Below are positions 55,623 through 60,327 of a stretch of DNA of 64,000 nt, piece by piece. The translations under genes were made by a program, and so were the position numbers. Where the stretch lies: NCBI RefSeq assembly GCF_002797895.1, contig NZ_PGES01000001.1, forward strand, positions 1,550,001 to 1,614,000, read 5' to 3'. The DNA is from Janthinobacterium sp. 67. Its GTDB lineage: Bacteria > Pseudomonadota > Gammaproteobacteria > Burkholderiales > Burkholderiaceae_D. The notes under the pieces were generated by a model. The model searched no databases and was not told the DNA's origin. It was given only the letters and a program-made list of their open reading frames with translations. Positions within the stretch are counted from its first letter, which is position 1. Each line of letters begins with the position of its first letter.

Positions 55623-56351
55623 ATGCCGCCACCGCTGCCAGAAGAGATACAACGCCACCTCGATATATTCGTCGCCGCCGCGCAAAAGGCCTTCGGCGCC
55701 GACCTGGCCGCCGCCGTACTGTTTGGCTCGGCCGCCGATGGCCAGCTGCGCGCCACCTCCGACGTCAACCTGCTGTTGCTGCTCAAGCGCTTTACGCCAC
55801 AGGCAGCCGATGCGCTGCGCGGCCCCTTGCGCCTGGCGCACGCCGCCATCGATTTGCAGGTGATGTTCTTGCAAGAAAACGAATTGGCGCAGGCCGCCGA
55901 CGCCTTTGCCGTCAAGTTTGCCGACATCATCGCGCGCCACCGGGTGCTGCATGGCGCTGACCCTTTCGCCAGCCTGCACACGAGCCGCGACGCCGTGCTG
56001 CGCCGCCTGCGGCAAGTGCTGCTGAACCAGCAGCTGCGCATGCGCGAACGGTATATGCTGTTGAGCCTGACAGAAGAACAGCTGGCCAGCGCCATCGCGG
56101 ACGCGGCCGGCCCCCTGCGTTCGGCGGCGGCCTCGCTGGCGCAACTCGATGGCAAGTCTGCACAATCTGGCAAGCAGGCGCTCGAAGCGTTTGTCGACCA
56201 GCTGGGCGACCCGGCCCTGCACGCCGCCCTGCAAGCCATGTCGGCCGCGCGCGAAACGGCACGCCTAGCGCCGGGGCAGGCCCTGCCCGCCTTCACAAGC
56301 CTGATGGCGATTACCGAACGCCTGCGCGAACACGCGGAGCAGATGCGGTGA
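55623..56351 (+). CDS. nucleotidyltransferase-fold protein, first gene of the MNIO unit
   Basis: 242 residues if ATG 55623 is used; GTG 55587 and GTG 55608 are in frame, but a TATATT -10 element at 55573 leaves hardly any leader for 55587. The MNT-like core is AVLFGSAADGQLRATSDVNLLLLL: GS and the first Asp are present, but the usual second Asp of GSx10DxD is Asn. A further Asp follows in AAIDLQVMF. The rest is helical and perhaps HEPN-like. Its stop overlaps the next gene's GTG. Whether it transfers nucleotides is open because of the altered motif. No link to MNIO chemistry is known to me. Confidence 0.72.
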   Translation: MPPPLPEEIQRHLDIFVAAAQKAFGADLAAAVLFGSAADGQLRATSDVNLLLLLKRFTPQAADALRGPLRLAHAAIDLQVMFLQENELAQAADAFAVKFADIIARHRVLHGADPFASLHTSRDAVLRRLRQVLLNQQLRMRERYMLLSLTEEQLASAIADAAGPLRSAAASLAQLDGKSAQSGKQALEAFVDQLGDPALHAALQAMSAARETARLAPGQALPAFTSLMAITERLREHAEQMR

Positions 56352-57265
56352 ACGGCTTCAATCCCTTTGACTGGAGCGGGCCATCGTTCCTGCTGGCCTA
56401 CCTGATCTTCGGCGCGCTCGTGTACTACCTGGCGCGCGAGCTGCTGATCCGCATGGAATTGCGCAATCCGCACGCCCAGCTGTCGCTGGCAGATGATCCC
56501 TACCGCATCGCGTTCCTGCGCGGTGGCGCCCTCGAAGCCGTGAAAATCGCCGCCATCGTGCTGGTCGACCGGGGCTTGCTGCGCGCCGACGGCCCGCTGC
56601 TGGAAACGGCCAACGCCGACAGCCTGCGCTTTGCCAGCCACGATATCGAACGCGACGTGCTGCGGCTGTACCTGGGGCGCCAGGGGCACAGCAAGGAACT
56701 GGCCGTGCAAGCCGAGATGCTGCCGTCGTGCCGCGCCTACGAGGAGACGTTGACGCAGCAGGAATTGCTGGTCGGCCCGCAGCTACTGCGCCGGCGCGCA
56801 CGCATCACCTGGGCCGCGCACTGGCTGCTGCTGACGGTGGCCGGCGTCAAGGCCGTCATCGCCATCAGCCGCCAGCACTACAATCTGCTGTTCCTGGCGG
56901 TCCTGCTGGCGATTTTTCTCCTCATGCTGCGCGGCTTGCGCACCAGCGCGAGCAGCTGGAGCGCGCAGCGGCTGCTGACCGACCTGCGCATGCTGTTTGG
57001 CCGGCTGAACATGCGCTCATCGCGCCTGCAGGCGGGCAACAGCAGCGCCGACATGGCGCTGCTGGCCGCCATCTTCGGCATCAGCGCCCTGCCCTTGTCC
57101 GTGTACGCGTATGTCGCCGAGCTGTATCCGGTGCCCCGGCAAAATGGCGGTGGCGACTCCTCGTCCGGCAGCACGGGCGACTCGGGCGACTCGTCATCGG
57201 GCGGTGGTGACGGCGGCGGCAGCGGCTGTGGGGGATGCGGCGGTGGCGGCGGCTGTGGCAGTTAG
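56348..57265 (+). CDS. TIGR04222-type membrane protein with cysteine-bearing Gly/Ser tail
   Basis: 305 residues from GTG 56348, overlapping the upstream stop as GTGA. Four spans are likely: about 13-32, 155-173, 178-195 and 240-260. The part up to about 165 fits the TIGR04222 domain of uncharacterised membrane proteins. From residue 273 the tail consists only of Gly, Ser, Asp, Thr and three Cys (294, 297, 303), with CGGC and then a run of five Gly before the last Cys. Such tails are a family feature, and a DUF692 oxidase gene overlaps its 3' end, so the tail may be the peptide it modifies; this is inference. Confidence 0.82.
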   Translation: MNGFNPFDWSGPSFLLAYLIFGALVYYLARELLIRMELRNPHAQLSLADDPYRIAFLRGGALEAVKIAAIVLVDRGLLRADGPLLETANADSLRFASHDIERDVLRLYLGRQGHSKELAVQAEMLPSCRAYEETLTQQELLVGPQLLRRRARITWAAHWLLLTVAGVKAVIAISRQHYNLLFLAVLLAIFLLMLRGLRTSASSWSAQRLLTDLRMLFGRLNMRSSRLQAGNSSADMALLAAIFGISALPLSVYAYVAELYPVPRQNGGGDSSSGSTGDSGDSSSGGGDGGGSGCGGCGGGGGCGS

Positions 57266-58109
57266 CCAGGAGACCGCGCGCGACCGTGTCGGCCTGGGCT
57301 GGCGCGCCGAACTGGCTGCCGGCATCCTGTCCAACCTGGCGCGGATCGACGTGCTGGAAGTGATCGCCGACGATTATTACGGCGCCTCGCGCGCCGGCAT
57401 CGCCGCCTTGCGCAGCCTGGCGCGGCAGGTGCCGGTCAGCCTGCATGGCGTCGGCATGGGACTGGCGTCGACGATTCCCGCCGAGCCGCGCCGGCTGCAT
57501 GCGATGGCGCGCCTGATGCAAGCGGTGCAGGCGGAATCGTGGTCCGAGCACCTGAGTTTCGTGCGCGCCGGCGGCATCGAGATCGGCCACCTGGCCGCGC
57601 CGCCGCGCACGCCGCACAGCGCCGCCGGCGCCATCGCCAATATCGCGCTGGCCACGCGCATCGTCGGCAGCGCGCCGCTGATGGAAAACATCGCCACCCT
57701 GGTCCAGCCGCCGGCCAGCACCATGGACGAAGCGGCATGGCTGGCGCAGATTATCCACGGCGCGCAAGTGCCGCTGCTGCTCGACCTGCACAACCTGTAT
57801 GCAAATGCCGTCAATGCCGGCGAGTCGCCGCAGGAACTGCTGCTGCGCCTGCCGCTGGACAGGGTCGGCGCCGTGCACCTAAGCGGCGGCCACTGGATCG
57901 CTGCGCCGGACGGCGGCCAGCGGCTGCTGGACGACCACCTGCACGACGTGCCGCCCGAAGTCTTTGCTTTATTGACCGTGCTGGCGCGCCATGCGCCGCA
58001 ACCGTTGACGGCAATCGTCGAACGCGACGGCAATTACCCGTCGTTCGAGCATGTGCTGGGCCAGCTGGAACTGGCGCGCGCGGCCTTGCGCGCGGGGCGA
58101 GCCGCATGA
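57255..58109 (+). CDS. DUF692/MNIO-family iron-dependent oxidase
   Basis: 284 residues from GTG 57255, which overlaps the TIGR04222 gene by 11 bases; the true start could be slightly different because the frame is open upstream through the low-complexity region. The TIM-barrel family motifs are all visible: SLHGVGMGL (His64), WSEHLSF (Glu98, His99), LMENIATL (Glu144, Asn145), LLDLHNLYANAVNAG (Asp177), VHLSGGH (His208, His213), LLDDHLHDVP (Asp227, His228) and VERDGNYPS (Glu256). Family members such as MbnB and TglH use two or three irons to oxidise peptide cysteines. The iron ligands appear intact, so it should be an active enzyme. Confidence 0.85.
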   Translation: MAVSQETARDRVGLGWRAELAAGILSNLARIDVLEVIADDYYGASRAGIAALRSLARQVPVSLHGVGMGLASTIPAEPRRLHAMARLMQAVQAESWSEHLSFVRAGGIEIGHLAAPPRTPHSAAGAIANIALATRIVGSAPLMENIATLVQPPASTMDEAAWLAQIIHGAQVPLLLDLHNLYANAVNAGESPQELLLRLPLDRVGAVHLSGGHWIAAPDGGQRLLDDHLHDVPPEVFALLTVLARHAPQPLTAIVERDGNYPSFEHVLGQLELARAALRAGRAA

Positions 58110-58363
58110 GTTCCCCCGCACTGGAAACCTATCTGGCAAGGCTGTACACGGACGACGCCCTGCGTGCCGCCTTCCTGCTCGAACCCCATGCGCAAGCCCT
58201 GCTGCATGGCTTGTCGCCGCAGGAAGCGGAAGCGATGGCGGCGATCGACCGCATCGGCCTGCAGATGGCGGCGGCCAGCTATCGTTCCAAGCGCACCGCA
58301 CACGGTACCCGGGCGGCACCGGCGCAACGCTGGTGGCGCCGGCTGATTGCTGGCTGGACCTGA
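58106..58363 (+). CDS. small partner protein of the DUF692 oxidase
   Basis: 85 residues starting at ATG 58106 inside the oxidase stop (ATGA overlap). It is charged and helical: LETYLARLYTDDALRAAF, then GLSPQEAEAMAAIDRIGLQ and AAASYRSKR, with a basic tail. Small proteins encoded after MNIO genes often bind the precursor peptide leader (as MbnC and TglI do), and I suggest this role, but the sequence does not clearly belong to those families. It could also be the modified substrate, though it has no cysteine, which argues against that. It is not a usual length for a free-standing enzyme. Confidence 0.72.
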   Translation: MSSPALETYLARLYTDDALRAAFLLEPHAQALLHGLSPQEAEAMAAIDRIGLQMAAASYRSKRTAHGTRAAPAQRWWRRLIAGWT

Positions 58364-58367
58364 CGGC

Positions 58368-60239
58368 CTACAGCTGCCACATACGCAGCGGCAGCAATCC
58401 CCACCAGGCCAGCACCAGCAGCAGTTGCAAAGCCGCCAGCAAGGCCACCCAATCCCATTTCGCCCACGAGCCCGCCTCGGCCGGCGTGCCGCGGCTGCGC
58501 CAGCAGCGGGCCAGGCCGAACGCCGTCGCCAGCGGCAGCGCGCCCGTCACCAATACCAGCAGCACACTGGCGATGGTGACGTCGCCCAGGCGCAGGTAGG
58601 ACTGGAAATAGAAAAACGGCAGCGGCAAGAGCAGCGCCAGCATGGCCAGCAAAGGCGCGAACAGATGGTCGCCCCGCTCCAGGCTGCGCAGCGCGGCGCG
58701 CCACACGCCCACCACCAGTACGTACAGCAAGCCGGCAGCCCCCAGGGCCAGGCTGCCCCACAGCACCAGCATGCGCAGCATCGACGCGCGCTCATAGCTG
58801 CGCAGGCCGTCGCTGAGGATATGCTTGCCGTCTTCCTGCATCAGCACGTGCGACGGCGTGCTGCGGTCGCTGGCGCGGAACAGCAGGCCGCCCACCGGTT
58901 CCAGTTCCTTCGGCTCGCCCTGGAACGGGATCAGGAACAGCGACTCGCCATCCCATTTCAGCCGCGTAAAACCGAAGACGGCATCGACCCAGGCCATGCT
59001 GGCCATGGGGCTCGGCGACGGCACGTAGACGCCCTGCCAGTTTTCCACCGTGGGCGCGGGCGTACCGCGCGGGGCCGGCGCGCGCAGCGGCAGCTCCAGG
59101 TCGCGCAGCAGCAGGCGGTTGAAGCGTTCATAGTCGGCCCGCTCGGCATCCGTATTGAAGGCCACGAAGAAGGCGCTGTCCTGCTCCGGGTAGATGCACA
59201 GCATGGCGCGAAAACCGACGGCCGTGCCAGGGTGGCAGGCGCCGACCACGTTATGGCGGTCGCGCACGGCCAGCGCCAGGCCGTGGCCCGTGGCCAGGCC
59301 CGCCTGCGCCGCATCCGTGCCGGCCGGCTCGGACAAGGCGCCCATCAGGGCCAGGTCGATGAACTGCGCGCCCTGCAGCTTGCCGTCTCCCATCAGGAAG
59401 CGCGCCAGCCTGGCCATGTCGGCCGCCGTGGTGGTGAACTGCGCGGCCGGGCGCAAATACTGGGGCACGGCCGGCTGCGCCACGCCATGCTCGAAGTGGC
59501 CCATGGCCAGGCGCGGGTCCGCGAGCGATCCCGCCTGACTGACGAAAGCAAACGTGCTGTCCGCCATGCCCAGCGGCTGCAGCAGCTGCGCATCGAGGTA
59601 GCGCTCATAGGGCTGGCCCGTGACCTTCTCGATCACCATGCCCAGCAAGCCATAGCCCATGTTCGAGTACGCATAGCGGCTGCCGGGCCGGGCGCGCACG
59701 CGCAGCAGATTGCCGCCGCCGTCGAAGGCCTCGGCCAGCGGCGTGTCCGGCGCCGGGTTCAGGCTGAACGCCTGCCAGAAGCGCACATTATCGATACCCG
59801 ACGTATGCGCGAGCAAGTGGCGGATGCGCACGGGGTCGCTGGCCAGCCACGGATTTCTCAGGGCGACTTCCGGCAGCACCTGCTGCAAGGGCGTGTCGAG
59901 CGTGAGCTTGTCTTCGCTGACGAGGCGCAGGACGCCCAGTGCCAGCGCCACCTTGCCCACGGAGCCCACCTGCATGCGCGTGTCCGCCTGCATCGGTATT
60001 TGCTTGGCGGCATCGCGCAAGCCGGACGCGCCGACTTTGACTGTTCCGTCGGGCAAGACTTCGCTCCAGACGGCACCCGCCAGGCCCTCGTCCTTCAAGC
60101 CGGCCGCAAACTCCGCCTCCAAGGTAGGGCCGGCGGCGTGGGCCACGGTGGCACAGCACAGCAGCAAGGCCGGCACGGCCCGCTGCAGCCACGACCTGGC
60201 GCGCGCGGCCAGGGTCGGATATCGATCTCGTTTCAACAA
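58368..60239 (-). CDS. serine hydrolase (class C beta-lactamase-like) with C-terminal membrane domain
   Basis: 623 residues from TTG 60239, preceded by AAAAGGCGG at good spacing; a longer reading to 60311 lacks a leader. A signal sequence ends near TVAHAAG. The catalytic domain has SxxK in VGSVGKVALAL and YxN in YSNMGYGLLG, the pattern of DD-peptidase/beta-lactamase-like hydrolases, and a following lipocalin-like region. The last 120 residues hold about four hydrophobic spans. The substrate might be a peptide or ester, or cell-wall fragments; antibiotic resistance is unlikely. It converges with the 85-residue gene, 4 bases apart. Confidence 0.83.
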   Translation of the reverse strand: MLKRDRYPTLAARARSWLQRAVPALLLCCATVAHAAGPTLEAEFAAGLKDEGLAGAVWSEVLPDGTVKVGASGLRDAAKQIPMQADTRMQVGSVGKVALALGVLRLVSEDKLTLDTPLQQVLPEVALRNPWLASDPVRIRHLLAHTSGIDNVRFWQAFSLNPAPDTPLAEAFDGGGNLLRVRARPGSRYAYSNMGYGLLGMVIEKVTGQPYERYLDAQLLQPLGMADSTFAFVSQAGSLADPRLAMGHFEHGVAQPAVPQYLRPAAQFTTTAADMARLARFLMGDGKLQGAQFIDLALMGALSEPAGTDAAQAGLATGHGLALAVRDRHNVVGACHPGTAVGFRAMLCIYPEQDSAFFVAFNTDAERADYERFNRLLLRDLELPLRAPAPRGTPAPTVENWQGVYVPSPSPMASMAWVDAVFGFTRLKWDGESLFLIPFQGEPKELEPVGGLLFRASDRSTPSHVLMQEDGKHILSDGLRSYERASMLRMLVLWGSLALGAAGLLYVLVVGVWRAALRSLERGDHLFAPLLAMLALLLPLPFFYFQSYLRLGDVTIASVLLVLVTGALPLATAFGLARCWRSRGTPAEAGSWAKWDWVALLAALQLLLVLAWWGLLPLRMWQL

Positions 60240-60327
60240 TGTATTCCGCCTTTTCCATGGACTGCGCTCCCGCGCAAGATAGCTTGTTACAATCAAAACC
60301 TGAGCAAACAATCAAGCAGGAGCCCGC

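Follow-up and report, generated by a model that had tools for sequence, protein, structure and literature searches.

A candidate maturation cassette for the cysteine tail of a TIGR04222 membrane protein in Janthinobacterium sp. 67

The stretch of DNA analysed here, referred to as the window, comprises 64,000 nucleotides of the soil bacterium Janthinobacterium sp. 67 (contig NZ_PGES01000001.1, positions 1,550,001 to 1,614,000) and carries four overlapping genes (Table 1) for a nucleotidyltransferase-like protein (NT), a TIGR04222 membrane protein ending in a Cys-bearing Gly/Ser tail (TIG), an oxidase of the MNIO (DUF692) family and a small helical protein (PART). Together, these genes probably form a maturation cassette, in which MNIO and PART would oxidise the tail cysteines of TIG. 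Comparison among loci, made at the level of sequence, gives good support to the tail as the putative substrate of MNIO. The general idea is known: according to the main text of Antoine et al. 2025 (PMC12452194), TIGR04222 proteins account for 40% of a set of over 1,000 proteins that contain Cys, lack a signal and are encoded ahead of MNIO genes, and modification of the C-terminal tail has been proposed for a subset of them. A reading of the locus as a new discovery was rejected, as that proposal is in print; the partner type, the enzyme fusions, a free-peptide relative and radical SAM neighbours are added here. The original prediction, which named the tail as the oxidase substrate, thus gains comparative support across loci, while its idea was already published and the modification itself is one that we infer.

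Read directly from the sequence, the NT and TIG genes join at GTGA and the MNIO and PART genes at ATGA, confirming the four overlapping genes described at the outset. The 11-base overlap then given for TIG and MNIO is one of three options, with MNIO starting at a GTG at 57228, 57243 or 57255 and overlapping the TIG gene by 38, 23 or 11 bases, respectively. Because all three candidate starts overlap the TIG gene, the beginning of MNIO falls within the tail codons. TIG matches TIGR04222 with 70.1 bits (NCBIfam cut-off 43) and has cysteines at positions 128, 294, 297 and 303, of which the last three lie in the tail and are each followed by Gly. A C-terminal segment of 45 residues with at least three Cys and at least 18 Gly is found in 1 of the 173 stop-to-stop frames of at least 150 amino acids in the window. 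MNIO scores 203.1 bits against PF05114 (Pfam cut-off 25), and the original claim of a complete enzyme is borne out, as all nine iron-binding residues described for TglH (in the available text of PMC10880893) have counterparts (H73, H108, E153, D186, N189, H217, D235, H237 and E265). Seven of these positions were placed by direct alignment with TglH, and His73 and His108 through 3bww and MbnB. The enzyme stays under the equivalog cut-offs of BufB (NF050167, 173 of 310 bits) and HvfB (NF003818, 123.2 of 360 bits), and its closest named relatives are from Janthinobacterium. The source genome encodes a single TIG and two further MNIOs, both with a higher PF05114 score than the MNIO of the window and one followed by the gene for a DUF2063 protein.

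Table 1 Features of the four-gene set, in window coordinates
Feature	Position	Strand	Remarks
NT, nucleotidyltransferase-like protein	55623..56351	+	ATG 55623; alternative GTG 55587
TIG, TIGR04222 (near_uncomplex) membrane protein, 305 aa	56348..57265	+	
C-terminal Gly/Ser tail of TIG, 40 residues, proposed modification site	57143..57262	+	
MNIO (PF05114)	57255..58109	+	alternative GTG starts 57228, 57243
PART, 85-residue helical protein, LigA/Os1348/SonA leader-type	58106..58363	+	

The gene set is conserved within the genus, as TIG occurs in 15 of 18 same-genus relatives and NT, TIG, MNIO and PART follow each other in that order at all 15 loci. The three genomes without TIG (G395, G406 and G438) also lack an MNIO that scores in the same class as that of the window; the six matches in them reach 324-368 bits, as compared with 183-224 bits for eight full-length TIG-linked MNIOs. 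Outside the genus, TIG matches over the cut-off are rare, with 6 of 200 genomes in the order, 19 of 245 in the family and 14 of 398 in the phylum, in samples that overlap. Three phyla entered by way of fetched loci gave 14 of 297, 11 of 246 and 2 of 251 genomes. The centre genomes may be included in these counts, and the sample for the phylum of G816 gave matches only in genomes already met in the phylum of G818. The sampling lies outside Actinomycetota, said to hold most TIGR04222 proteins. Neither a search of viral contigs nor one of plasmids with a TIG protein gave a relative.

The survey for TIGR04222 genes beside DUF692 genes that the original prediction proposed was approached from MNIO, where a genome scan for the subfamily yielded 97 relatives and the best 80 of the 97 were examined as loci. 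A TIG with 2-8 tail cysteines is encoded at 70 of these best 80, counting L140 and L153, which have broken frames, and L179, with an incomplete MNIO. The remaining ten include three loci that start at a contig edge, six with distant MNIOs and one in Ramlibacter aurantiacus (L155, see below). According to the record titles, the loci, which across phyla are mostly from metagenome assemblies, belong to Proteobacteria, Acidobacteria, Verrucomicrobia, Planctomycetes, Myxococcales, Chloroflexi, Bdellovibrionales, Armatimonadetes and Leptospirales. In a pooled set of 112 TIGs (excluding weak or partial domains but retaining near-identical rows from Janthinobacterium), 85 are MNIO-linked, and every one of these has at least three tail cysteines. 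NT is matched within the locus for 66 of the 85 and PART for 80, so the co-occurrence of the 85-residue gene with the Cys tail, originally put up for checking, holds. Given the single frame among 173 in the window, the gene order kept at 15 of 15 same-genus loci and the retention of tail cysteines across phyla, the cassette and its tail are judged not to be a chance arrangement. Tandem pairs of Cys-tailed TIG genes ahead of a single MNIO were observed at L142 and L143.

The strongest hint that the enzyme pair recognises the tail comes from one locus, L155, whose MNIO is 54% identical to that of the window and falls within the TIG-type clade. No TIG was found in this genome at E 1e-6. Instead, the genes upstream of MNIO encode a C39-peptidase exporter, a PART-like protein and a microcin-like precursor of 120 residues (L155:2336-2695) with a double-glycine leader, a glycine-rich middle and a C-terminus of CGG repeats; a TauD-type oxygenase is also encoded in the cluster. 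The leader matches PF10439 at E 8e-5 (22.9 bits, under the cut-off of 27.1), and the N-terminus of the PART-like protein matches our own PART profile at E 3e-20 and NF038399 only at 0.015.

The tail is also found beside a different enzyme. At L067 and L068, a radical SAM/SPASM gene directly follows a Cys-tailed TIG, while at L051 a radical SAM gene lies tail to tail with NT and TIG in a genome without a PF05114 match. At L222 (G885, 17 kb examined), the order is NT, TIG, a TrkA/ion-channel gene and the gene for a full SbtM, which scores 496.6 bits against TIGR04082 (cut-off 350). The enzymes of L051, L067 and L068 reach 137.8, 114.5 and 142.3 of these 350 bits, and TIGR04082 is the best family for each. 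In the TIG tree, made by a quick method from 88 of the 112 rows (L190, L217, L218, L153, short domains and near-copies left out), L051 and L222 (row L194), both without an MNIO nearby, occupy two separate places inside the MNIO-linked TIG clade (98), with local supports of only 92 and 83, and L067 and L068 group with the truncated L069 in a different TIG clade (99). L151, with its MNIO 2 kb off, joins the MNIO-linked set in the tree only, and L070 was counted as having no enzyme, its PqqE-like neighbour lying on the opposite strand as read from the sequence. In the class of G571, 6 of 48 genomes have TIG, all already known, and no further radical SAM-TIG pair was found there. The radical SAM protein of L067 matched 112 plasmid records, of which the ten listed bear other radical SAM names. 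Separately, a gene of radical SAM/SPASM type begins immediately downstream of L230:3539-8082, which codes for a long protein of membrane type ending in a (CHSA)n Cys-repeat tail. This membrane protein has a partial TIGR04222 match (43.2 bits, cut-off 43) and no NCBIfam match at E 1e-10, and its radical SAM neighbour exceeds none of the cut-offs of the 25 NCBIfam families shown; the two are another possible tail-enzyme pair.

The tail is the likely target because the same kind of tail is carried by a free secreted peptide and stands beside a different enzyme. It could be speculated that it is a portable Cys-Gly tag, a C-terminal CGG module placed on a membrane protein or a free double-glycine-leader peptide and served by unrelated maturases, be it MNIO together with a partner of the leader type or a radical SAM enzyme like SbtM. 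The leader-type domain, which in other RiPPs is attached to the substrate, would in this view have gone over to the enzyme, either fused to it or acting in trans. This broader proposal is tentative, and we hold it to be somewhat less likely than its opposite. An exchange of enzymes at one tail would show that these have the tail in common, rather than a leader.

Several observations weigh against modification of the tail by MNIO. In the tree, 18 TIGs have neither MNIO nor radical SAM adjacent, two of them (L069 and L073) cut by a contig end, and 13 of the 16 untruncated ones keep at least two tail cysteines. The preference for Cys-Gly is similar in this enzyme-less class (49 of 57 Cys) and hence not specific to MNIO. 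Among nine searched genomes with such tails, G588, G486 and G575 have no PF05114 match, at a completeness of 100%, 96% and 80%, the last being the L073 genome with its cut TIG, and the other six have one to three matches elsewhere, each above 310 bits. When the presence of MNIO was compared with the number of Cys on the tree, there were only 1-2 supported independent pairs, with which significance is unreachable, and the free-peptide relative is known from one locus. The notion that every Cys tail needs an MNIO was rejected in view of the tails without one. Intact tails without DUF692 had been named as evidence that would speak against the original prediction, and this evidence was found in part, in those 13 TIGs and in three of the nine genomes. 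One suggestive pair of paralogues occurs in G1226, where the MNIO-linked TIG (L216) has 6 tail cysteines and the MNIO-less copy (L211) none. Several enzyme-less TIGs have an N-terminal part or a neighbour that we label GRDP-like, four of the proteins being without a Pfam match.

The placement of the tail raises a further difficulty. Four transmembrane segments are predicted in TIG, and on a scale of predicted insertion energy, three are clearly favourable in most homologues and the fourth is marginal in most, with a median of 1.16 kcal/mol over 103 rows and -0.52 in the TIG of the window. The side of the membrane is thus ambiguous in this model: the tail would be outside if the fourth segment inserts, apart from the cytoplasmic enzyme, and cytoplasmic together with the enzyme otherwise. 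An outside position was suggested in the main text of Antoine et al. (PMC12452194).

The Cys tails without an adjacent enzyme, and those in the three searched genomes without a PF05114 match, speak for an alternative in which the tail cysteines act unmodified, as a metal site or in thiol/disulfide chemistry, while the MNIO encoded in the operon has a different substrate or helps with insertion. Moreover, of 1,372 genomes that carry TIGR04222 genes, 490 are without MNIO (PMC12452194, main text). Yet all 85 MNIO-linked TIGs have their three or more tail cysteines, 83 of the 85 MNIO-linked loci have no second Cys-(Gly/Ser) repeat on the same strand within 4 kb, as far as the loci extend, and at L155 a same-clade MNIO sits beside a free peptide with a CGG-repeat tail. 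We consider this alternative unlikely.

PART resembles the helical leader-type domains of LigA, Os1348 and SonA in profile and fold, as a PDB profile search and a fold search both returned LigA, Os1348, SonA and OphA clasp chains. The best Foldseek match has an E-value of 0.26, not significant by E-value, and a probability of 0.97. Against NF038399 (Os1348 family NHLP clan), PART of the window scores 22.5 bits, under the cut-off of 40, and 32 of 33 members of the PART alignment, the window's included, match this family at E 0.01. Natural PART-MNIO fusions occur at nine loci in other genomes. Of the small leader-binding partner initially expected for MNIO, the small partner gene is present, but "leader-binding" does not describe it, as PART resembles leader domains themselves. 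Published MNIO partners are mostly DUF2063/RRE proteins, and in the main text of PMC12452194 partners of PME-type 2 were assigned to at least 10% of TIGR04222 clusters; PART could equal the small "adjamnio-V" proteins of that paper. On this alternative reading, PART would be nothing unusual, but one of the published PME-type 2 partners that resemble DUF2063 proteins. This appears improbable, as hhalign gave PART a probability of 0.2% in profile comparison with 14 DUF2063 proteins (selected by position and by inspection, and all 14 then confirmed to exceed the Pfam DUF2063 cut-off) and the searches led to the LigA-type chains above; the NGO1945 structure 3dee was not listed in either search.

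That TIG is instead a cleaved carrier, its modified tail cut off and released as a free peptide rather than staying on the membrane protein as originally predicted, is suggested by the core-peptide-like, low-complexity C-terminal extension and by the double-glycine-leader precursor and C39 exporter of L155, but is the least probable of the alternatives, as the four conserved genes include no protease (the surroundings were not searched for one) and L155, within the TIG-type clade, looks derived rather than ancestral.

In the proposed maturation of TIG, PART would dock on MNIO, which would oxidise Cys within the Cys-Gly motifs of the tail. The product would most likely be a thiooxazole or a related heterocycle able to bind metal; its chemistry is taken by analogy from HvfB, where the target cysteines are likewise in CG motifs, and metal binding and the role of PART are similarly putative. 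Translational coupling may bring the enzyme to the tail at a stage when this is neither inserted nor folded away, and PART may represent a leader-type domain moved from the substrate to the enzyme. As judged from its sequence, NT is a degenerate nucleotidyltransferase: its motif, GSx(9)SDVN, has Asn in place of the second Asp of the usual DxD, as do 65 of 66 NT domains covering the motif (the window's included), the GS...DxD pattern of an active nucleotidyltransferase is not found in it, and its matches to MntA, Polbeta and NTP_transf_2 are all sub-threshold. NT may bind a nucleotide without catalysis; that it serves in regulation or as a scaffold is a guess. Just past PART and outside the cassette, a convergent gene (window 58368-60311, minus strand) encodes a Beta-lactamase-family protein (PF00144, 181 bits).

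Among known systems, the window locus is of the published TIGR04222-MNIO type, in which a membrane protein with C-proximal Cys is encoded beside an MNIO and no DUF2063 gene is present; here, the Cys lie in a low-complexity tail and MNIO is adjacent. More than a quarter of the published TIGR04222 proteins have no C-proximal Cys. In the main text of PMC12452194, "nucleotidyl" and "LigA" have 0 occurrences, "radical SAM" appears in the reference list only, and its available text has neither an MNIO-partner fusion of this type nor a free-peptide relative. Likewise, no report of such a partner, of the fusions, of a free-peptide relative or of radical SAM neighbours was found in the literature searched, which covered titles and abstract openings and few subscription journals. 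The L222 enzyme resembles SbtM, the thio(seleno)oxazole radical SAM maturase, in being over the TIGR04082 cut-off near a Cys-tailed TIG, yet unlike in SbtM systems, no separate Cys/Gly-rich or Sec-reading repeat lies within 17 kb and a TrkA/ion-channel gene separates TIG and enzyme. TglHI and MbnBC (PDB 8hi7, 7dz9; available text of PMC10880893) differ in having other partners and free precursor peptides. In SonA, the borosin-binding domain related to Os1348 and LigA is the leader of the substrate, according to the available text of PMC8429565, whereas PART is separate or fused to the enzyme. A chemical parallel is found in HvfABC/oxazolin and the bufferins, where, as described in the available text of PMC13419390, MNIO with an obligate partner oxidises the Cys of CG motifs (AEGKCGEGKCG) to 5-thiooxazoles, in a reaction that removes four electrons per Cys, and where an engineered HvfB-HvfC fusion is active, like the natural MNIO-PART fusions in its design. 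There, the substrate is a small Sec-exported peptide and the partner an RRE-domain protein of the DUF2063 kind; here, a LigA-type domain is the partner and a membrane-protein tail the proposed substrate. Should this tail be modified, chemistry of the ribosomally synthesized and post-translationally modified peptide (RiPP) type would extend to an integral membrane protein, and a heterocycle that binds metal could be anchored at the membrane, for which the free-peptide relative and the fused enzymes offer small soluble test systems.
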